Below, piece after piece: positions 4,036-25,200 of a stretch of 64,000 nt of DNA. The notes under the pieces were generated by a model, which saw only the letters and a list, made by a program, of their open reading frames with translations, did no database searches and was not told the origin of the DNA. Source of the stretch: Streptomyces griseoviridis (lineage in GTDB: Bacteria; Actinomycetota; Actinomycetes; Streptomycetales; Streptomycetaceae); NCBI RefSeq assembly GCF_005222485.1, contig NZ_CP029078.1:7875501-7939500 (forward strand), in the 5' to 3' direction. Position numbers and translations under genes: made by a program. Position 1 is the stretch's first letter. The number at the start of each line of letters is the position of its first letter.

Positions 4036-5127
4036 TTACCAGCACATCACCGCGGTCTCCCCCGGACCCCACGCGGAGTACAGACGGACGCGGACGTAGT
4101 AGCGGCGGCCCTTGACGAGCCGGGCGCTGATCGTCGCGTTGTGCCGGCTTCCCCCGTCGTCATGGCCCACGAGGTAACGAGCTTCCCCGTCCCGTTCCTC
4201 GAAGACCACCAGCACACCGTCGCTCGCCCCGAACGTGCCCACCGTGAAATCGCGCGTCTCCGGCGGCTCGACCACGAAGTCCGCCTGCTCCCCGGGGCCG
4301 AGGCCGAGCGGCACCGACCGGAAGGGCACCAGATCCGGCAGCCGCCCCGCGGCGGCCGACGGATACCAGCGCAGGGCGAACTCCTTGTCGGCCGGAGAGA
4401 GCGTCCCGGGCGGGTGGAGCCCCGCCCGCAACTGCTCCGGCTCAAGGATCAACCCCGCGGGAAACGGATACTCCATGATCGACTGCGAGTCCCAGACGGA
4501 GCCGTTGGCCTCGTCCGGGTCCAGCTTGCTCAGGATGTTCGCGAACGTCCGCTCCCGGCCCCAGTAGTTCGGCGGACCTGCCAGTTCGGCGTAGACGGCC
4601 TCGTCGTCCCAGTGGATGCCGGCGAACGGACTCTGGTGCTCGTGCAGCATGCCGAGCGCGTGTCCGATCTCGTGCAGGACGATCCCGCGCCCCCCAGGCA
4701 CGGTCACGTCCCACCCGAGATTCATCGTGCGCTCGTGCACCCCCACCTGGAGGGCGTCCTTGCCGACCGCCGACCAGGAACCGTCACCGAGCTGGAAACC
4801 GATGCGCAGCTCCGCCTCCGAGCGGTCCCCGACCTCGACGAACGTGACGCCGATGCCGAGGTCCCCCCACTCACGGAAGCAGTCGCGCACCACCTCCCGC
4901 TGCTCCTTCGCCCCCACCCACGACACCCGCCGCACCGAGCCGGTCCCCGGTACGGGGATGGCCGACGCGTCGTTGTCGCCGTCGAAGAAGCAGTAGTGCA
5001 GCACGGTGCCGTTGACCCACATCCGGCTCCCGCCGATGAGCGCACCGCGCCGCTCAGCGGTCAGCCCCGGCGCGAACGCGGGGACCGACTGCTGCGCGAG
5101 AGAGCAGTAGCGTCCGGTCATGCGCAC
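4036..5127 (-). CDS. Astacin-like (M12A) zinc metallopeptidase
   Basis: 363 aa. The zinc site is complete: HEIGHALGMLHE (His152, Glu153, His156, Gly159, His162), followed by a Met-turn SIMEY with Met218 and the fifth-ligand Tyr220. Upstream, the IPV...FREWGDLGIGVTF pattern is that of the astacin-like ZnMc domain. The C-terminal 110 residues form a beta-rich region resembling a pre-peptidase C-terminal domain. No signal peptide or pro-domain is evident, which is unusual because astacins are normally secreted zymogens. It may be cytoplasmic or exported by a non-classical route. It is transcribed divergently from the LuxR regulator at 5192, across a 64-bp gap that must hold both promoters. Confidence 0.88.
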   Translation of the reverse strand: MRMTGRYCSLAQQSVPAFAPGLTAERRGALIGGSRMWVNGTVLHYCFFDGDNDASAIPVPGTGSVRRVSWVGAKEQREVVRDCFREWGDLGIGVTFVEVGDRSEAELRIGFQLGDGSWSAVGKDALQVGVHERTMNLGWDVTVPGGRGIVLHEIGHALGMLHEHQSPFAGIHWDDEAVYAELAGPPNYWGRERTFANILSKLDPDEANGSVWDSQSIMEYPFPAGLILEPEQLRAGLHPPGTLSPADKEFALRWYPSAAAGRLPDLVPFRSVPLGLGPGEQADFVVEPPETRDFTVGTFGASDGVLVVFEERDGEARYLVGHDDGGSRHNATISARLVKGRRYYVRVRLYSAWGPGETAVMCW

Positions 5128-5191
5128 AGCCTGCCGCAGCGGCCACCCGGGCGCCTGAGTCGGGATCTACTCAAGTCACCCTGTATCAGGG

Positions 5192-7054
5192 ATGAGTACT
5201 CGCGCTCATACTCCCGTGACGACTTTCGAACGCGATGCGAAGACCCTTGAACTGCCCTGGCCGTTCACCGCACGAGAGGACGAACTGGAGCTGGTCCGCC
5301 GGTCCCTGACCGCCGGCTCGCAGGGCATCCTGGTGACAGGCCCCGCGGGCTGCGGGAAGACCCGGCTGGCCACCGAGGCCGTGCGGGGCACCGACCGGGC
5401 CCGGGTGGCCGGCACACCCGAGACCCGCCACCTCCCCTTCGCCGCGTTCGCCCATCTCCTGCCCGAGACGCTCTCCCTGCACCGCGCGGTCCAACTCCTG
5501 TCCGCCGTGCGCCTGCTGGTGGTCGACGACGCCCACCTCCTCGACGACGCCTCGGCCGCCCTCGTCCACCAGCTCGCCGTCCACGGCCGCACCCGGCTGC
5601 TGGTCGTCGCGGCGGACGGCGCCCCGCTGCCCGGCGCCATCGCCCGGCTGTGGACCGGCGAACTGCTGCCCCGCCTCGCCCTGGAGCCGCTCTCCCGCGA
5701 GGACGTCGAGGAACTGCTCACGGCGGGCGTCGGCGCTCCCCCCGAGCCGCTCACCCTGAGCCGCCTGCACCGCCTCTCCCAGGGCGACCTGCGGCTGCTG
5801 CGCGACCTGGTGACCGCCGCCCGCGACCACGGCGGCCTCGACCGGCGGCCCGACACCGGCACCTGGACCCTCCGGGGACCGCTGCCGCTCACCGCGGCCG
5901 TCCGCGCGCACAGCGCGCGCGTGCTGGAGCGCACCGACCCCGACGACCGCGAGACCCTCGACCGCCTGGCGTTCGCCGAACCGCTGCCGCCGACCGCGGA
6001 CGACTTCGACCTGCGGGTCCTGGAGCGCCTCGAGGCCGACGGCCTGATCCGCACCGACGACCGGGGCGCCGTCCACCTCGCCCACCCCCTGCACGGCCCC
6101 GCCCTGCGCGCGGCGGCGGGACGGCTGCGCGCGCGGCGGCTGGCCCGCACCCCCGGCAGCCACCGGCCGGCCCTGGAGGCGGAGACGGCGGCCCTGGAGC
6201 GGCGGATCGCCCACGGGGACCTCCGGGCCGCGGCGGCGCCCCTGGGGGAGTGGCTCGCCGAGGAGGGCGCGCGGGTGCCCGCCGGGCACGCGGCCGTACG
6301 CGCCAGGACCGCGCGGCTGCGGGGTGAGCTGCGGGAGGCGGCGGCCTGGGCGCGGGAGGGCCTGCGGCAGACACCGCAGGACGCCTCCTGCCGTACCGAA
6401 CTCGTCCTGGCCGCCGCGCAGTCGGGGGACGCCACCGCCGCCGCCGAGGCGGTCGGACCCGGGCCCGTCCCGGCCGGCGCCGCGGTCTGGCTCACGGTCG
6501 TCGCGGGCGACACCGAGGACGCCCTGGAGATGATCTACGACGGCGGTCGCGAACCCCTCGCCCTCTACGACGCCGTACGCCTCGGGGTGCCCGAGAAGGT
6601 CGCCGACCGGCTGCCGCACGGCAGCCTGTTCGCGCTCCACGCCGACGCCCTGGCGCGCGGCGACGGACCCGCCCTCGACCGGGTCGCCGCCGCCCTGGAG
6701 GCGCGCGGACACCTGCTATTCGCGGCCGAGGCGCACGCCCAGGCGGTACCCGCGCACCGGGACCCGAGAGCCGCCCGCACCTCACGCACGCGTGCCGTCG
6801 CGCTGGCCCGCCGCTGCCAGGGCGCCCGCACCCCGGCCCTGTCAGGACTGGTCCTCGGCGAACTGACCGCGCGCCAGCGCCAGATCGTCACCCTCGCCGC
6901 CGCGGGGCTCAGCAACCGTCAGATCGCCGAACAGCTCACCCTGTCCATCCGCACCGTCGGCAACCACCTGTACAGCGCGTACGCACGGCTCGGCGCGAGC
7001 GACCGCGGCGCGCTGCCGTGGCTCGTCCAGCTCCCCGACGCCCGGTCCGCCTGA
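5192..7054 (+). CDS. ATPase-LuxR (LAL-like) transcriptional regulator
   Basis: 620 aa from ATG 5192. The N-terminus carries an AAA-type NTPase with Walker A GPAGCGKTR (50-58) and Walker B LLVVDDAHLLD near 110. A helical middle part without clear TPR spacing follows. The last 65 residues are a LuxR HTH (LTARQRQIVTLAAAGLSNRQ... then IAEQLTLSIRTVGNHL). At 620 residues it is shorter than classical LAL regulators of about 900. No strong ribosome site precedes the ATG. It is divergent from the metallopeptidase and may control it. The inducer is unknown. Confidence 0.92.
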   Translation: MSTRAHTPVTTFERDAKTLELPWPFTAREDELELVRRSLTAGSQGILVTGPAGCGKTRLATEAVRGTDRARVAGTPETRHLPFAAFAHLLPETLSLHRAVQLLSAVRLLVVDDAHLLDDASAALVHQLAVHGRTRLLVVAADGAPLPGAIARLWTGELLPRLALEPLSREDVEELLTAGVGAPPEPLTLSRLHRLSQGDLRLLRDLVTAARDHGGLDRRPDTGTWTLRGPLPLTAAVRAHSARVLERTDPDDRETLDRLAFAEPLPPTADDFDLRVLERLEADGLIRTDDRGAVHLAHPLHGPALRAAAGRLRARRLARTPGSHRPALEAETAALERRIAHGDLRAAAAPLGEWLAEEGARVPAGHAAVRARTARLRGELREAAAWAREGLRQTPQDASCRTELVLAAAQSGDATAAAEAVGPGPVPAGAAVWLTVVAGDTEDALEMIYDGGREPLALYDAVRLGVPEKVADRLPHGSLFALHADALARGDGPALDRVAAALEARGHLLFAAEAHAQAVPAHRDPRAARTSRTRAVALARRCQGARTPALSGLVLGELTARQRQIVTLAAAGLSNRQIAEQLTLSIRTVGNHLYSAYARLGASDRGALPWLVQLPDARSA

Positions 7055-7146: not shown

Positions 7147-9750
7147 TCACACCGCGCCGAACGCCGTGAACGCCCAGCCCGTCGCCTGGTGCAGCGCGTC
7201 ACCCGGCAGGGCGGCCCGCGCGTCACGCAGCGCCTCCGCGAGCGACAGACCCGTGCTGAGGCCCTTGTGCAGGGCGAGCATCAGGGGCACCACGGCCGCG
7301 TCGTTGACCGGCGCGCTGCTCGCCACCACGCCCGCCGTGCCCAGCGGCAGCAGCGCGGTCACCAGACCGAGCAGTTCGTCCGCGCCCACCGACGCGAGCC
7401 GCGCGGTGTCGCAGCTCGACAGGATGATCCGGTGCGGACTGCGGTCCAGGCGCTCGAAGTCGTGCACGATCAGCGGCCCGTCCGCCATCCGCAGCGACGA
7501 GAACAGCGGGCTGTCGGCGCGGAACGTACCGTGCGCGGCGATGTGCGCGAGCGCCGCCCCGTCCAGCTCCCGCAGCACCCGCGGCACGCGCGCGGCCTCG
7601 TGCTCGAGCAGCGTCGGACGGCCGTACCTGTCGGCGAGTTCCGGCACCTCGGCGCCACCCGACGCCAGCCCGGGACCGCGCACCAGCACCTGCCGGTCGT
7701 CCGGCGGCGGCTCCGTCTCCAGGGCCCGCAGCCAGCTGCTCGCCGACGGCGACACGCTCAGCACCCGCTCCCGCAGCGACGGCAGCAGCGCCCACGGCAC
7801 CCGGTGCAGCCGCCCCGGCGGAACCACCACCACGGGACCCGAACCCAACTGCGCGGCGGCCGGCCCGAGCAGCAGCTCCTCCAGCCGCCGTCCCATCGCC
7901 TCGACCAGCGGCAGCCGCGCCTCCGCCCCCGGATGCGCCAGCCGCCGCAGCCCGGCCTGCACGTGCTCGGCCTCCACCTCGGCCTCCGCGAGGAGCCCGG
8001 CCTCGAACCGCCGCACCCGCCCGTCCCCGCACAGCAGCACCTGCACCCGGCCGTCGAGCACCGCCAGCTCCACCAGCCGCACCCCGTCGAGCCGCGCCAG
8101 CAGCCGGCCGACGTCGAACCGGTCGCCGTCGCCCGGGGTCTCGCCGCGGATGTGCAGCGTCCTGGAGCGGATCTCCCGCTCCAGGCGCCGCTGCTCACGG
8201 TCGAGGGCCGGCACCGGACGCCCGTCGCTGCGGGCCTCCTCCGCGCGCGCGGCGATCTCACGGAACGCCGTCAGGTCACCGAGCAGCGCCGGATCGGCCG
8301 GCGGCCTGGTCGGCGGCGCCGACAGCACCGTGGCCCGCCACCGCTCGCTCCACACCAGCAGCCGGCGCGGCCCGCCCGACTCCAGGCTCGCCTGCTGCGC
8401 CAGCGCCGCCAGCTCCGCGCCCTGCTCGGTGGCGCGGGCCCGCAGCTCCGAGGCGCCCAGCGTGGTCCGGTGGTCGTCCAGCACGTCGAGACCGCGTCTG
8501 CACGCCTCCAGGACACCCCGGCCCGAACCGGCGGACCTGGCCCGCAGCGCCTGCGCCGCCCAGCCCGTCATCCGGGCCAGCGGCGGCCCGCCGTGCCGGC
8601 TGCGGGCGGCGACCGCCAGATGCCGTTCCGCGTCGTCCGTCCAGCCGAGGCCGAGCGCGATCCGGCCGGCGAGCAGCGACGCCTCCGGGGCGGCCGGCGC
8701 CCCGAAGGAGGCCAGCTTCTCCGCGACCGCGGCGGCGTCCGCGACCAGCCGCCCCGAACCCCGCCCCGCCGCCACCCGCGCCTGGATCAGCACCAGCCTG
8801 GCGTGCGTCTCCCACCAGGGGCGTCGCTGCCCCGCGAACAGCCGCACCGCGAGCGCCGCGCGCGCTATCGCGGTGCCGGGATCGCCCGCCAGACGCGCCG
8901 CGCGGGCGGCCACCAGGAGCAGTTCGGCCTTGCGGGTCGACTGCCCGCCGATGCCGTCGAGCACCCCGATCGCCGCGTCCGCCTCGATGACCGCCTCGGA
9001 GGCCAGCCCGGCCGCCATCAGGACCTCGCAGCGCCTGATGTACAGCATGAACGAGGGGGTGCCGAGCTTCGCGTACCGCTCCTCCGCCTCGTCGAACAGC
9101 CGCAGCGCCACCGGGATGTCACCCGAACGGAACGCGGCGAGCCCCCGGCTCTCCACCGCGTCCGCCTTGTCGTGCTCCTGTCCCGTCGTGCCCCAGAGGG
9201 CCTCGGCCGCCGTGAAGTCGGCGTCCGCGCGGTCCACCGCGCCCACCGCCAGATGCACCGTCGCGCGCAGGGTCAGCGCCCGCGCCACCCAGATGACGTC
9301 GTCGACCTGGCGCAGCACCGGTATCGCCCGCCGCACGTCCTCCAGCGCCTCACGGTGCCTGCCGAGCACCCAGTGCGCGTAGGCCCGCCGGTACAGCACC
9401 CGCGCGCGGGTGTGCCCGCTGCCCCGCTCGACCCCGCGCTCCAGGGCGGCGAGACCCTGCTGGGTGCGCCCGGCGTGCACCAGCGCCACCCCGAGGGCGG
9501 CCAGCACGTCCGCCTCCCGTTCCGCGGACTCCGCGCGCGCGGCGAGGTCCCGGGCACGCCGAAGGTGACGCAGGGCGATCCGCATGTCGCCCCAGTCCCG
9601 CTGCCAGATCCCGATCACCTGATGCGCCACGGACGCGTGCAGAGGCGACGGGTCCGCGCCGAGCACACCTTCCGCCCGTGCCAGCGCGTCGTTCGGGGCG
9701 GCGAACACCATGGGCAGAAGTTCGAGTACCGATTCGCTTCCCCCTGTCAC
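7147..9750 (-). CDS. TPR-CHAT caspase-like protease
   Basis: About 867 aa from GTG 9750; an upstream in-frame start at 9786 is possible. Residues about 30-430 are TPR-like helical hairpins rich in Ala/Leu. The C-terminal 350 residues are a CHAT domain. The catalytic His is in HIAAHGTFRADSPLFSSL (about His740) and the Cys is in ILSSCDTA (about Cys780). CHAT proteins are caspase-fold proteases whose TPR part receives a trigger. There is no signal peptide or membrane segment. It is divergent from a subtilisin-sigma-small protein operon, 110 bp away. This pairing suggests a proteolytic signalling module. The substrate is unknown, and the small acidic protein at 11932 or the sigma factor are candidates. 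Confidence 0.9.
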   Translation of the reverse strand: MTGGSESVLELLPMVFAAPNDALARAEGVLGADPSPLHASVAHQVIGIWQRDWGDMRIALRHLRRARDLAARAESAEREADVLAALGVALVHAGRTQQGLAALERGVERGSGHTRARVLYRRAYAHWVLGRHREALEDVRRAIPVLRQVDDVIWVARALTLRATVHLAVGAVDRADADFTAAEALWGTTGQEHDKADAVESRGLAAFRSGDIPVALRLFDEAEERYAKLGTPSFMLYIRRCEVLMAAGLASEAVIEADAAIGVLDGIGGQSTRKAELLLVAARAARLAGDPGTAIARAALAVRLFAGQRRPWWETHARLVLIQARVAAGRGSGRLVADAAAVAEKLASFGAPAAPEASLLAGRIALGLGWTDDAERHLAVAARSRHGGPPLARMTGWAAQALRARSAGSGRGVLEACRRGLDVLDDHRTTLGASELRARATEQGAELAALAQQASLESGGPRRLLVWSERWRATVLSAPPTRPPADPALLGDLTAFREIAARAEEARSDGRPVPALDREQRRLEREIRSRTLHIRGETPGDGDRFDVGRLLARLDGVRLVELAVLDGRVQVLLCGDGRVRRFEAGLLAEAEVEAEHVQAGLRRLAHPGAEARLPLVEAMGRRLEELLLGPAAAQLGSGPVVVVPPGRLHRVPWALLPSLRERVLSVSPSASSWLRALETEPPPDDRQVLVRGPGLASGGAEVPELADRYGRPTLLEHEAARVPRVLRELDGAALAHIAAHGTFRADSPLFSSLRMADGPLIVHDFERLDRSPHRIILSSCDTARLASVGADELLGLVTALLPLGTAGVVASSAPVNDAAVVPLMLALHKGLSTGLSLAEALRDARAALPGDALHQATGWAFTAFGAV

Positions 9751-9757
9751 CCCACGG

Positions 9758-9763
9758 ATGGTA
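9758..9763 (-). promoter_or_regulatory. Putative -10 box of the CHAT gene (leaderless)
   Basis: On the minus strand TACCAT is followed by seven bases and then GTG at 9750. That is the spacing expected if transcription starts at the G of the start codon, giving a leaderless mRNA. No convincing ribosome site precedes this GTG, and the -35 element is weak. Confidence 0.4.
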
Positions 9764-9860
9764 GTCGTCCGGATTGCGCGGGACACCCGTTCGGCGCTGT
9801 ATCAAACGACGGCCAGGTGGATCTGTATGACGACCGGCCGTCCCAGGGGGAGGACACACG

Positions 9861-11279
9861 ATGGCACCACAGCGATTCCGGGAACAGTTCGACCAGATCC
9901 AACGCTCCCTGTCGGGCGTCGCCCTGGCCATGGGGCCTGACGACTCGGCGGAGTTCATCTACGAGAAGGGCGTCGTCCTCGCCCGCGACGGCGACGAGGC
10001 CCGCCTCGTCGAGGACACGGTCCGCACCCACTTCGCCGCCGCCCCCGACCTGGTCGCCGACCACGTGCGCAGGGCGAGCCCGGAGACCAACCGCTCCGGC
10101 ATCACCCGCATCCGCGTCGGCGACCCAGGACAGGGCGACCGGCGCGGTGACCACACGGTGGCCGGCGCGCTGCGCGCGCTGCGCGAGCACGAGAACCGCC
10201 ACGGCCGCCGGCTGGTCAGCCGCAACCACGTGGTGGGGATCGCCGTCAACTCCTGCCCGGGGGACGAACCGGTGCCCGTCGCGCGCGCCGAGGCACCCAA
10301 CCCGGCCGCGGCCGACACCGAGCACGACCGGGACACCGCGGTCCAGGTCCTGGTCATCGACAACGGCCTCACCCACGACCACGCCGCCTACCCGCTGCTC
10401 GCCCACACCCGGGGCGACACCCAGGTGCGGGAGACCGACGACGCCGGGATCCTCCAGCAGTACGTCGGGCACGGCACGTTCATCGCCGGGCTGCTCGCCG
10501 CCGTCGCGCCCAACACCGACATCACCGTCCGCAACACCCTGAGCGACGCGGGCGCGGTCCTGGAGTCCGAGTTCGGGGAGCTGCTGTTCGACGCCGTCGA
10601 GGAGGGCGGCTGGCCGGACATCCTGAGCCTCTCCGCCGGCACGCCCAACGGCCGGGTGGACGGCCTGCTCGGCCTCGACGCGTTCATGCGGGCGCTGCGC
10701 GAGCGGCACACCCTGCTGGTCGCCGCCGCGGGCAACAACTCCAGCGCCACCCCGTTCTGGCCCGCCGCCTACGCGGCCCTGCCCGAGTACCGGGACGCCG
10801 TCCTGTCGGTCGGCGCGCTGCGCGGCGACGGCGAGTTCGGCGCCTGCTTCAGCAACCACGGCCCCTGGGTGCGGGCCTACGCCCCCGGCGAGCGGCTGAC
10901 CAGCTCCCTCACCGGGTTCGACGGACCCGTCCCGTACGTCTACCAGCACAGCACCTACGAGGACTGCCGGTTCGGGTTCGGCTACCGCTGCACGTGCAGC
11001 CACCCGCGCCACGCGGGCGTGCTGAGCGACGAGGGCGCGATCGCCAAACCCGACCAGGTGATGTTCGACGGACTGGCCCAGTGGAGCGGCACCTCGTTCG
11101 CCACCCCCGTCGTCGCCGGCCTCGTCGCCTCCCACATGACGGCGGAGAAGGAGACCGACCCGCGCGAGGCCGCGCGGCAACTCCTCGCCCGCAACACGGA
11201 GTTCGCCGAGGTGCGCGGAGCGCACGTACCGGCGCTCAGGCCGGCCACCTGGCGCCCGGTCGAGGTGAGCACCGCGTGA
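9861..11279 (+). CDS. S8 subtilisin-like serine peptidase, cytoplasmic type
   Basis: 472 aa from ATG 9861, with GGGGGAGG at 9846-9853. The triad is intact: Asp167 (VLVIDNGL), His204 (GHGTFIAG), Ser412 (GTSFATPVVAG), with oxyanion Asn292 (AAAGNNS). The 160-residue N-terminal part has no signal peptide and no inhibitor-like prodomain pattern, so it probably acts inside the cell. A Cys-rich insertion (Cys369, Cys377, Cys379) lies between the oxyanion Asn and the Ser. The sigma gene follows closely. A GTG overlapping its TGA (11276) is in the sigma frame, but a better sigma start lies at 11360. Association with a CHAT protease and sigma factor implies regulated proteolysis. Confidence 0.93.
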   Translation: MAPQRFREQFDQIQRSLSGVALAMGPDDSAEFIYEKGVVLARDGDEARLVEDTVRTHFAAAPDLVADHVRRASPETNRSGITRIRVGDPGQGDRRGDHTVAGALRALREHENRHGRRLVSRNHVVGIAVNSCPGDEPVPVARAEAPNPAAADTEHDRDTAVQVLVIDNGLTHDHAAYPLLAHTRGDTQVRETDDAGILQQYVGHGTFIAGLLAAVAPNTDITVRNTLSDAGAVLESEFGELLFDAVEEGGWPDILSLSAGTPNGRVDGLLGLDAFMRALRERHTLLVAAAGNNSSATPFWPAAYAALPEYRDAVLSVGALRGDGEFGACFSNHGPWVRAYAPGERLTSSLTGFDGPVPYVYQHSTYEDCRFGFGYRCTCSHPRHAGVLSDEGAIAKPDQVMFDGLAQWSGTSFATPVVAGLVASHMTAEKETDPREAARQLLARNTEFAEVRGAHVPALRPATWRPVEVSTA

Positions 11280-11359
11280 ACGTCCTGTCGGCCGGTACAC
11301 GTGCCGGGACGGCCCCTCCCACGGCGTACGATGACATGCCGTACTCGAGGGGTGGGGCC

Positions 11360-11935
11360 GTGGACCGTTCAGATGTCGGCGCGCTTGTCCAGTCGGCGAT
11401 CGACGGTGACGCGGCCGCGTGGAAAGCGCTGGTGGAAGGGCTGAGCCCGCTGGTGTGGTCGGTCGCGCGAGCGCACCGGCTCTCCGACGCCGACGCGCAC
11501 GAGGTCTACCAGACCGTGTGGTTCCGTTTCGCCCAGCACCTGGGCCGGATCAGGGAACCGCAGAAGGCGGGCTCCTGGCTGGCGAGCACCGCCCGCCACG
11601 AGAGCCTGAAGGTGATCAAGAGCCTGCGGCGGCTCACCCCGACGGACGATCCCCAACTGCTCGACCGGGTCAGCGAGGACCGCACCCCCGAGCAGTCGCT
11701 GCTCGACTCGGAGGAGGCCGCCGCCGAGTCCGAGCGCATCCGCCACCTGTGGCAGGAGTTCGAGGAACTGGGCGACCGGTGCAGGCAGTTGCTGCGCGTC
11801 CTGATGGCGTCGCCGCCGCCCAGCTACCAGGAGGTGTCCGCGGCCCTCGGGATCGCCGTGGGCAGCATCGGACCGCTGCGCCAGCGGTGTCTGCGGCGCC
11901 TACGGGCGCGACTCGAAGCACGGGGAGCGGTGTGA
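11360..11935 (+). CDS. ECF-like RNA polymerase sigma factor
   Basis: 191 aa from GTG 11360, chosen because GAGGGG (11347-11352) lies 7 bases upstream and family members begin near DRSDVGALVQ. ATG 11336 is an alternative. Region 2 (SPLVWSVARAHRLSDADAHE, then VYQTVWFRFAQHL) and region 4 (PSYQEVSAALGIAVGSIG) are both visible; no C-terminal extension is present. A TACGAT at 11327-11332 could be an internal -10, giving some independent transcription. Its stop overlaps the start of the small acidic protein by 4 bases, implying translational coupling, as is usual for a sigma and its inhibitor. Confidence 0.9.
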   Translation: MDRSDVGALVQSAIDGDAAAWKALVEGLSPLVWSVARAHRLSDADAHEVYQTVWFRFAQHLGRIREPQKAGSWLASTARHESLKVIKSLRRLTPTDDPQLLDRVSEDRTPEQSLLDSEEAAAESERIRHLWQEFEELGDRCRQLLRVLMASPPPSYQEVSAALGIAVGSIGPLRQRCLRRLRARLEARGAV

Positions 11936-12432
11936 ACGACATGGATGACCTGAGCGGTACGGGCGGCCGGGACGGCGAGGACTCCTTCGCCGTCGAGGAA
12001 CCCGCCCTCGGCCGGCTGGACGGCGAACTGCGCGGGGCCGCCGCGGTCCTCGACCCGGTGCCGACCGCCCTCGAGCAACTGGCCGTGGAGGCGTTCGCGC
12101 TGCACGACCTGGACGCCAGGATCGCCGAGCTGACCTTCGACTCGGTGACCGACGCGATCCCGGTCAGGGGCGCGGTGGAGGCACCGCGCATGCTGACGTT
12201 CCAGGCCGACGGGCTGACCGTCGACGTGGAGCTGACCGGGCACGGCCTGATGGGGCAGGTGCTGCCCCCGCAGACGGCGGCCATCGAGGTGCTGAGCGGC
12301 CCGCGCGCGGGCTCCTCGCTGACCACCGACCCGCTGGGCCGGTTCACCTCGCAGGAGCCCCCGTCCGGCCCGTTCGCGCTGCGGCTGCGCACCGGCGGGG
12401 GCGTCCTCGTCACCGACTGGCTGACGGCCTGA
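11932..12432 (+). CDS. Small acidic protein coupled to the sigma factor (candidate anti-sigma or protease substrate)
   Basis: 166 aa from GTG 11932, sharing GTGA with the sigma stop; ATG 11941 is an alternative. The ribosome site GGGGAG is at 11922-11927. An acidic disordered start is followed by a helix (ALEQLAVEAFALHDLDARIA, then ELTFDSVTD) and a C-terminal beta-rich half with a GRFTSQEPPSGPFALRLR strand pair like a carboxypeptidase-regulatory or transthyretin-like fold. There are no zinc-binding HCC residues and no membrane segment, so it is not a classical ZAS anti-sigma factor. Position and coupling suggest it controls the sigma factor. I do not recognise the family by name. Confidence 0.75.
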   Translation: MNDMDDLSGTGGRDGEDSFAVEEPALGRLDGELRGAAAVLDPVPTALEQLAVEAFALHDLDARIAELTFDSVTDAIPVRGAVEAPRMLTFQADGLTVDVELTGHGLMGQVLPPQTAAIEVLSGPRAGSSLTTDPLGRFTSQEPPSGPFALRLRTGGGVLVTDWLTA

Positions 12433-22263: not shown

Positions 22264-25200
22264 ATGATCGAAGTGCGCCTGCTGGGGCCGGTCGAGGTGT
22301 GGGACGACGGCACCCGACGTCTGCGCCTGGGCGGGGCGAGACCGGTGGCGCTGCTGTCCGCGCTCGTCGTCCACCTCGGCGAGGTCCTCTCCACCCAACG
22401 CCTGGTCGACCTGGTCTGGGAGGAACGGGCACCGGCCACCGCCGGCGCCCTGGTCGCCTCGCACGTGGCCGCCGTGCGCCGCGCCCTGGCACCCGCGGGC
22501 GCGTCCTCGGCGATCCGCACCCGGGCCCCCGGCTACCTCGCCGATCTCCCGCCCGGCCAGGTCGACGCCCGCCGCTTCGAGCAACTGCTCTCCGCCGGGC
22601 GCCGCGCCGCCGCCGAGGGCCGTGACACCGACGCCCTCGACCTGTTCACCGCCTCCCTCGACCTGTGGCGCGGGCAGGACGCCCTCGAAGGCGTCGGCCA
22701 GTCCTTCGCCAGGATCGAGGCCGCCCGGCTGAAGGAACTGCGGCTCGTCACCCTGGAGCACCTCTACGATCTGCGGCTGCGGCTCGGCCACGACAGCGAG
22801 ATCGTCGCCCCGCTCCTCTCCCACGTCGCCGCCCATCCGCTGCGCGAGCGACCGCGCGCCCAGCTGATGACCGCCCTGTTCCGGGTCGGCCGGGCCCCGG
22901 ACGCGCTCCGGGTCTTCCAGGAGGGCCGCGACATCCTCCGCACCGACCTTGGCCTCGACCCCGGCCCCGAACTGCGCGCCCTGCACCTGGCGGTCCTGCG
23001 CAACGACCCCGCGCTCACGGCACCGGGACGCACCGGGAGCCCCAACGCCCCAGGCGGGGAAGGCGGTTCGCCTCGGTGGCCGCCGGCCGGTCGTGCCGGG
23101 GCCGGACCTGCTGAACCGGCGTCCCCGGCCGGGTCCACGCGTCCCGGCCCACCGCTTCCGCCGGGCGCCCCCGGCTCGGGCCCACCGTCTCCGCCGGGCG
23201 CCCCCGGCTCGGGCCCACCGTCTCCGCCGGGCGCCCCCGGCTCTGCCCCACCGTCTCCGCCGGGCGCCCCCGGCTCGGGCCCACCGTCTCCGCCGGGCGC
23301 CCCCGGCTCGGGCCCACCGTCTCCGCCGGGCGCCCCCGGCTCGGGCCCACCGTCTCCGCCGGGCGCCCCCGGCTCGGGCCCACCGCTTCCGCCGGGCGCC
23401 CCCGGCTCGGGCCCACCGCTTCCGCCGGGCGCCCCCGGCTCGGGCCCACCGCTTCCGCCGGGCGTCGTCAGCCCCGGCCCACCGTCTCCGCCGGGTGCGC
23501 TCCCAGCCGGTACGCCGCTCCCGCCCGGCTCTCCGCGCCCCGATCCGCCGCTCCTCCCCAGCCCTTCCCGACCGGCCGATCCCGACCCCGACCTCGCCAC
23601 CGTGCCGTCCGTGCCGCCCGTGCCCGTGACGGTGCCCGCGGTCCTGCCGGTCCTGCCGCCCTCCCATCTGCCGCCGGACGTCGCCGACTTCGTCGGCAGG
23701 GCACGGCAGGTCGGCTGGGCGACCGGGCTGCTCGACCAGGCCCGTGAGCCCGCCAGGACCGCGCCGCCGATCGGGGTGATCTCCGGACGGCCCGGCATGG
23801 GCAAGACGGCCCTCGCCGTGCACGCGGCCCACCGCGCCGCCCACCTCTTCCCGGACGGCCGCCTCTTCCTCGACCTGCGCGCCTCGGACACCGCCCCGCT
23901 GGCCGTCGCCGACGCCCTCGCGCGGCTGCTGCGCGCCCTCGGCGTCGACCCCGAAGCCGCCCACGGCACCGACGACTTGATCGGCCTGTACCGGACCCGG
24001 GTGGCGGGCAGGCGCATCCTGCTGGTCCTCGACAACGCCCCGAGCGAGGCCCAGCTACGGCCGCTGCTGCCGCCCGGCCCCGGCTCGGCCGTCCTGGTCA
24101 CCAGCCGTCGACGGCTGACGGCGCTCGAAGGCGCCGTCCGTCTCGATCTGTCGGTGCCAGGGACGGCCGAGGCGCTCGAGCTGCTGACCACGGTCGCCGG
24201 AAGGAACCGGGCGCCAGGACCCGCACCGACGACGGATTCCGCGCCTGCGGGAGATCCCGCGCCGGGAGCGGAGCCCGCGCCGGGAACGGTGGTCGGACCG
24301 GGAACGGTGGTCGGACCGGGAACGCCGGTCGGGCCGCGGACGACGCCCGCACCGCCGCAGGACCCCGCAACGCCCCTCGATCCCGCACCGCCCGTCGGCT
24401 CCGCACCATCCGTCGATCCCGCCCCCGGCGACCTCGCCGAGATCGTCGCCCTCTGCGGTCAACTCCCCCTCGCCCTGCGCATCGCGGGGGCCCGGCTGGC
24501 CGCGCGGCCGCACTGGGGTCCTGGACACCTCGCCGGACGGCTGCGGGACGAGCGCAGGCGCCTCAACGAACTGCGGGTGGGCGACCTGGAGGTGCGCACC
24601 AGCCTCGAACTCGGCTACGCGGAACTCGACCCGCCCGAACGCCGGGCGCTGCGCCGGCTCGCGCTGATGGACCTGCCCGACTTCGCCGCCTCGATCGCCG
24701 CGCCCCTCCTCGACATCGGCACCGAGGAGGCCGAGGAGGCGGTCGAACGGCTCGTCGACCGGCATCTCATCGAGGTGCTCGCCGCCGACGGGACCGGCGA
24801 GAACCGCTACCGCATCCACGACCTCGTCAGGGAGCACGCCCGTGAGCGCTGCCTGACCGAGGAGAGCCCCGCCGAACGCGCGGCGGCCGTACGCCGGTTG
24901 GTCGCCTGCTGGCTCACGCTCGCCGACCGCGCCGCCGTCCGGGGCCCCGGCGGTGTCTCCTGGCTGCTGCCCGCGCCCAAGGCGGAGTGCCCCCTCGAAC
25001 CCGCCGTCCAGGAAAGGCTGTTGGCTCGGCCCGCCGCCTGGTTCGCCGCCGAACAGAACTGCCTGGTCGCGGCCGTCCACCACTGCGCGGCCCAGGGCAT
25101 GACCCGGGCGGCACGCGAGCTGGCGGGCGCCCTGATAGCGAGTTCCGCCGCCCTGTACAACCAGTTCGACGTCTGGGCGCAGACCCACACCGTGGCCCTC

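Follow-up and report, generated by a model that had tools for sequence, protein, structure and literature searches.

We identified a module of four genes in a 64,000-nucleotide stretch of Streptomyces griseoviridis DNA (the window), which sits within an 8.96 Mb single-contig genome. The genes encode a tetratricopeptide-repeat (TPR)-CHAT protease, an S8-family subtilase, an extracytoplasmic function (ECF) sigma factor and a small acidic protein. At the level of sequence, the module is established as a conserved unit with intact catalytic residues and with a promoter element ahead of both the sigma operon and a neighbouring LuxR gene. We lean towards reading it as a proteolysis-gated, autoregulated sigma switch in which the small protein would be an anti-sigma factor cut by TPR-CHAT, and perhaps also by the S8 protease. 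A preliminary description made from the letters of the window had proposed that the small protein holds the sigma factor until one or both proteases cleave it, and this interpretation as a whole is partly supported.

The four proteins and their conservation as a unit

All four parts lie where the preliminary description placed them, with TPR-CHAT divergent from the S8, sigma and small-protein genes, and profile scores confirm the assigned families. The TPR-CHAT product matches Pfam CHAT at 100.9 bits (cut-off 24), carries TPRs and has a predicted structure resembling separase and Csx29, so that both a His–Cys dyad and a predicted separase-like fold are found. His752 and Cys792, the caspase-like pair noted earlier, are each kept in 47 of 48 genus loci; in the sole exception, L043, both are readable in another frame beyond a low-complexity insert. 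L040 and L043 carry a Pro/Gly-rich stretch ahead of the catalytic His, of about 180 residues in L040. The subtilase scores 63.1 bits against PF00082 (cut-off 21.8) with an Asp-His-Ser triad, and its Asp167, His204, Asn292 and Ser412 are conserved in 48/48 genus loci. Read by eye it has no signal peptide, in agreement with the intact, signal-less subtilisin first described. An insert preceding the catalytic Ser holds C369, C377, C379 and H384, again in 48/48 members; this insert, which could be a metal or redox site, is not shown by eight distant S8 proteins that we read.

The third protein proves to be an ECF sigma factor, as had been suggested, with a TIGR02937 score of 67.5 bits (cut-off 42.9), a Sigma70_r2 match, and regions 2 and 4 only, the latter recognized by eye. 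The small protein is 166 amino acids long and indeed acidic, with an isoelectric point of 4.2, and has no Pfam or NCBIfam match at E up to 0.1. Its model predicts a variable acidic N-terminus, two helices and an Ig-like beta sandwich, with an invariant Arg79 in the linker between the helices and the sandwich, and gave no Foldseek match at E <= 0.001. The GTG start of the sigma gene at 11276 falls within the S8 stop codon, and the small-protein start overlaps the sigma end by GTGA; S8, sigma and small protein thus form one tightly coupled operon. The preliminary description correctly reported the GTGA overlap, but coupling is not confined to that pair. A start at −4 is possible at the S8/sigma junction in 40 of 47 loci, at the sigma/small-protein junction in 39 and at both in 32.

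To define conservation within the genus we used a sample of 150 Streptomyces genomes that includes the window's own. The small protein and S8 are each present in 47; CHAT is present in 48 (47 plus a contig fragment in G061) and sigma in 52 (47 full-length at at least 80% identity, one short-contig fragment in G156 and four near 40%). All four genes occur in the same 47 genomes. Sigma relatives of about 40% identity (L059–L062) lie in apparent biosynthetic gene clusters without the small protein or CHAT. The 47 fetched loci, one of which (G060) came from a family sample, all match the four genes; the neighbouring LuxR, astacin and P450 genes are not always nearby. A second set comprises the best 80 of at least 479 confirmed CHAT matches in another collection (79 records named Streptomyces and one 'Actinobacteria bacterium') and shares strains with the first; 77 of these named loci hold all four genes, and the other three (L219, L225 and L227) begin close to a contig end.

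Outside Streptomyces the module becomes more variable in composition. Of 396 genomes in the phylum, a small-protein profile found matches in 27, of which 7 belong to the genus and 20 do not. All four genes lie within the stretch read in 9 of these 20 (G242, G251, G257, G275, G297, G398, G420, G472, with CHAT in pieces, and G522), so that the co-occurrence proposed as a check on the preliminary description is found both within and beyond the genus. Two further genomes combine CHAT with sigma and small protein (in G378 the stretch read showed no S8; the G492 contig starts inside CHAT), six hold sigma and small protein only (G286, G501, G510 and G578 of one genus; G317; and G430, at a contig start), and two hold a small protein without a recognized sigma gene (G384 and G462); the 34-residue match in G477 is probably false. 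A sigma gene therefore stands beside the matched small-protein gene in 17 of the 20. Gene order varies: CHAT may be divergent from S8-sigma-small, CHAT-sigma-small may be accompanied by a divergent S8, or all genes may lie in line, as in G297, where a second small protein, CHAT and S8 adjoin the first set and a second sigma gene was not recognized. G242 has two further small-protein genes elsewhere. Retention of the four genes despite rearrangement argues for joint function, and from sequence we conclude that they are a true conserved unit.

A promoter element at the sigma operon and the LuxR gene

We recognize here a new signal of the module, a conserved ECF-type promoter element preceding the sigma operon. 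TGTATCA occurs upstream of S8 in 48/48 genus loci, 61 to 177 bases from the gene, and 16 mostly variable bases further on stand C (45/48), T (48/48) and C (48/48). The window contains exactly two TGTATCA-N17-TC sites, at the S8 operon and the LuxR gene, and none ahead of TPR-CHAT; 100 shuffles of the window gave no site. Among the named loci, the element lies ahead of S8 in 79/80 (exception L279) and ahead of LuxR in 70/70 testable loci, a count that excludes five without a LuxR match and five without a LuxR N-terminus. Across the genus the strict pattern matched 108 of 150 genomes, near the reversed control in many, so isolated matches elsewhere mean little. One loose match (L139; G000 contig 1, 5131452) lies about 134 bases upstream of where a HemL-like gene probably starts; chance alone should yield a few matches of this kind, and the reversed control gave three in G000.

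In 22 distant stretches from 20 genomes (320 kb), the relaxed element [CT]GTATCA-N15-17-CTC has 19 sites. In 30 dinucleotide shuffles the average was 0.87 and the highest count 3; the reversed pattern had 0 sites. By eye, sites precede sigma operons (L095, L098, L101, L103, L104 and L105; four of one genus), S8 (L108, L113 and L115) and, in L097, an orphan small-protein gene. Two L104 sites, at 9363 and 14639, lie ahead of a secreted-looking protein and of an unknown gene after CHAT, and are possible further regulon members. Because the element recurs at the operon, at LuxR and in distant loci, the sigma factor very probably controls its own operon, and promoter specificity kept across such depth is best explained as reflecting the sigma factor encoded beside the element.

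The LuxR gene is a probable output of the module. Its start is probably GTG 5216 rather than ATG 5192, since the element covers ATG 5192, and with only 8 bases between the CTC and the GTG its transcript is probably leaderless. The genes adjoining the module encode astacin-like, LuxR, P450 and FGase proteins (Table 1). The astacin-like gene has a tblastn match in 73/80 named loci and is missing near several four-gene loci; with CHAT and S8 it makes a cluster of three protease genes without visible signal peptides. Elsewhere in the window, 33-nucleotide units form a tandem array of about 14 copies (23078–23539).

Table 1 Module genes, promoter elements and neighbouring genes in the window
Feature	Position	Strand	Basis and remarks
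TPR-CHAT protease (separase/Csx29-like in predicted structure)	7147..9786	-	Pfam CHAT + TPRs; His752 = 7531-7533, Cys792 = 7411-7413
Promoter element of S8-sigma-small operon, TGTATCA-N17-TC	9798..9823	+	ATC here, CTC in most relatives
Intracellular subtilase (S8), catalytic residues intact, Cys/His insert ahead of catalytic Ser	9861..11279	+	PF00082
ECF-type sigma factor, regions 2 + 4	11276..11935	+	Sigma70_r2; TIGR02937 above cut-off; region 4 by eye
Small acidic protein, candidate anti-sigma	11932..12432	+	Invariant Arg79 at 12166-12168 in linker
Promoter element ahead of LuxR gene	5182..5207	+	Pattern match
ATPase-LuxR (LAL-type) regulator, probable output gene	5216..7054	+	GerE above cut-off, AAA_16 below cut-off; start inferred from element
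Astacin-like metalloprotease, frequent outer neighbour, not core	4036..5127	-	PF01400; signal peptide not visible

A candidate G-rich repeat RNA

Some third element sites are intergenic and are followed by several ACGGGGGA units together with a strong hairpin whose loop is G-rich; these element-linked repeats are probably an RNA gene. Defined as the promoter plus at least four ACGGGGGA units within 200 nucleotides, the arrangement occurs in 22 of 48 module genomes and 0 of 102 others (one pattern, 150 genomes, relatedness not taken into account). Here the 48 are the 47 plus G061, the 22 are 21 from the pattern count plus G198, and the 102 include G156 with its sigma fragment. The pattern matched with a single repeat unit in G087, G116 and G159 among the 102, and without a repeat array in module genomes G052, G120, G141 and G175. 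Among the matches listed, module genomes G184 and G185, the two in which alternative spacings were looked at, have an element-repeat site at other spacing. The window's own genome yielded no element-plus-repeat site.

In 12 of 15 element-repeat loci, no open reading frame of 60 amino acids was called on that strand within 200 bases. Alignment of 19 of 24 hairpins (L126, L127, L128, L148 and L159 were omitted as different) showed that 5 of 16 pairs changed on both sides with pairing kept and that one pair breaks in 5 sequences, and one candidate RNA folds with a z-score of −4.36 relative to shuffles. A search of five loci against Rfam found no family above its gathering score; anti-hemB, at L133, was rejected (23.1 bits against 49.5, E 0.18), as it is located just upstream of the element, outside the transcript. 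Hairpin-rich G-run sequence also follows the element in distant loci L099, L100, L102 and L111, with clear repeats not in all. Similar repeats occur across the genus irrespective of the module, so the module sigma factor seems to act on one such locus among several. Directional ACGGGGGA repeat loci were found in 137 of 150 genus genomes (in most, the reversed-pattern control gave 0), including L202–L211 on G000 contig 1 (4221405, 5516736, 5546802-5547498 and 6598299-6598419), and could represent a family of RNAs or of leader sequences. Literature on G-rich repeat motifs and Streptomyces contained nothing evidently on these loci, among the matches listed.

Proposed proteolytic control and relation to known systems

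We infer the anti-sigma action, the cleavage, its trigger and the order of the proteases, as follows. The small protein would bind and silence the sigma factor, and TPR-CHAT, which lacks its own element in the window, would be present beforehand as the sensor. A ligand or partner on the TPR repeats might then activate TPR-CHAT. Separases cut after Arg, and the invariant linker residue Arg79 would be the likeliest place for TPR-CHAT to cut the small protein. The freed sigma factor would recognize TGTATCA-N16-CTC, a step strongly supported by sequence, and would turn on the S8-sigma-small operon, LuxR and, in roughly half of the sampled module genomes, the G-rich repeat RNA. The products of this operon, S8 and fresh small protein, would at first amplify the response and later end it.

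Sigma/small-protein pairs without proteases (6/20) and the orphan small-protein gene of L097 fit an anti-sigma role. They fit less well with the small protein being an adaptor or co-activator that tethers the sigma factor to TPR-CHAT or is needed for its activity, with the proteases as effectors on other proteins: the six pairs have no protease gene in the stretch read, and an orphan gene behind the element better suits a feedback inhibitor. The pairing of sigma and small-protein genes in 17 of 20 genomes, the capacity of TPR scaffolds to bind partners, the grouping of three signal-less protease genes and the position of S8 itself behind the element, as expected of an output, all agree with such an adaptor, which we nonetheless consider fairly unlikely. 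We consider it very unlikely that S8 is the trigger protease and CHAT an upstream one that, for instance, matures S8, in a two-step cascade of the DegS/RseP kind. S8 does lie in the sigma operon with a possible −4 start in 40/47 loci, and 9 of 20 distant genomes have both proteases alongside sigma and small protein; however, G378 pairs CHAT with sigma and small protein with S8 not found in its stretch, and if the element is the only S8 promoter, S8 would be made only once the sigma factor is active.

Several observations weigh against a switch gated by CHAT cleavage of an anti-sigma factor. Arg79 is invariant also where no CHAT gene is nearby (the six sigma/small-only genomes and orphan copies) and so may be structural rather than a cleavage site. 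Outside the sandwich the small-protein model shows just two helices, and the profile of the protein searched against the PDB at E up to 1 returned no Csx30 or anti-sigma chain, the sole match being Transcobalamin-2 at E 0.31. CHAT Asp828 is present in 13/14, and in three of the 47 fetched loci (L023, L035 and L043) a stop or frame change, due to error or decay, breaks the CHAT gene; a TGA reported in the CHAT of G146 seems located at the very start of the match. The relaxed promoter element was chosen once these distant stretches had already been inspected a first time and was not found in 6 of the 22 (L096, L106, L107, L110, L112 and L116). Finally, kinship among species means that 48/48 does not equal 48 independent events.

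The closest precedent for the favoured switch is the type III-E CRISPR system (CASP/Craspase). The available text of PMC10028731 describes Csx30 binding and inhibiting CASP-sigma, Csx29 cutting a flexible Csx30 loop, and sigma motifs in the locus, matching the precedent cited in the preliminary description; TPR-CHAT, sigma factor and small protein would be the counterparts of Csx29, CASP-sigma and Csx30. By contrast, a gRAMP/Cas7-11 gene is not beside the module (Cas7-11 was not searched in the rest of the genome) and no array is near: screening window 1-30000 for direct repeats (of at least 20, spaced at most 150) gave three tandem-type families only and nothing array-like, as expected from the earlier statement that no CRISPR is present. 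The window small protein has 166 amino acids, compared with 565 for Csx30 (PMC10028731, available text), and its profile, searched against the PDB, gave no Csx30 match. The actinobacterial module also adds an S8 protease and usually a LuxR regulator, and is found across actinobacteria.

Proposed bacterial conflict systems in which caspase-like protease and ECF sigma genes stand together (PMC8195603, available text) raise an alternative, that of an abortive-infection or cell-death defence module whose sigma factor merely expresses the proteases. The PADLOC 'subtilase' model matches S8 at 40.7 bits, and its IetS model does so weakly. PADLOC, however, gave no match to CHAT, sigma or small protein and, for five flanking proteins, two CARF3 models at the HTH end of LuxR only; with no CRISPR-like array in window 1-30000, we regard a defence module as highly improbable. 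The EACC2-caspase neighbourhoods likewise place a caspase-like protease, an ECF sigma factor and a TPR protein in adjoining genes, but their partners are EACC2, TRADD-N and DUF1822, and the available text mentions neither S8 nor this small protein (PMC8195603).

The switch that we favour resembles RseA/DegS and RsiW, named in the available text of PMC10028731, in that an inhibitor is cut and a sigma factor freed. RseA is a membrane anti-sigma factor responding to an envelope signal, whereas the module parts all appear cytoplasmic. DdvA is a transmembrane protein that is itself the anti-sigma factor; the literature searched yielded no paper on it. Unlike DdvA, the TPR-CHAT protein of the window shows no visible membrane segment and retains the His–Cys dyad. 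CalpL is a Lon-SAVED protease with a cyclic oligoadenylate input, unlike the module. In the type III CRISPR CalpL (Lon)/CalpT/CalpS system, too, a protease frees a sigma factor from its inhibitor (PMC11417357, available text). We found no published account of the four-gene unit or of its promoter element, in line with the earlier remark that no described system with exactly these parts was known to its author, in a literature search that left preprints and most subscription papers outside its reach; within it, published work matching TPR-CHAT and a sigma factor was all on CRISPR.

Gating of sigma factors by proteases is familiar from envelope stress and CRISPR, and the caspase-like version had looked CRISPR-specific. 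A chromosomal version, present in about one third of sampled Streptomyces and also in further actinobacterial lineages, suggests that CRISPR systems may have taken theirs from an older device. A bolder proposal, distinctly unlikely as it stands, is an ancient, CRISPR-free separase-type switch in actinobacteria, in which TPR-CHAT would free a sigma factor of deeply conserved promoter specificity whose regulon includes ACGGGGGA-rich RNA, perhaps acting back on TPR-CHAT or ribosomes; if true, RNA-regulated CHAT proteolysis would predate and be independent of CRISPR. With four genes and a promoter known by sequence, the module offers a tractable system, in harmless hosts, for learning the signals and substrates of a bacterial separase-like protease, and it links an unexplained G-rich repeat to a regulator.

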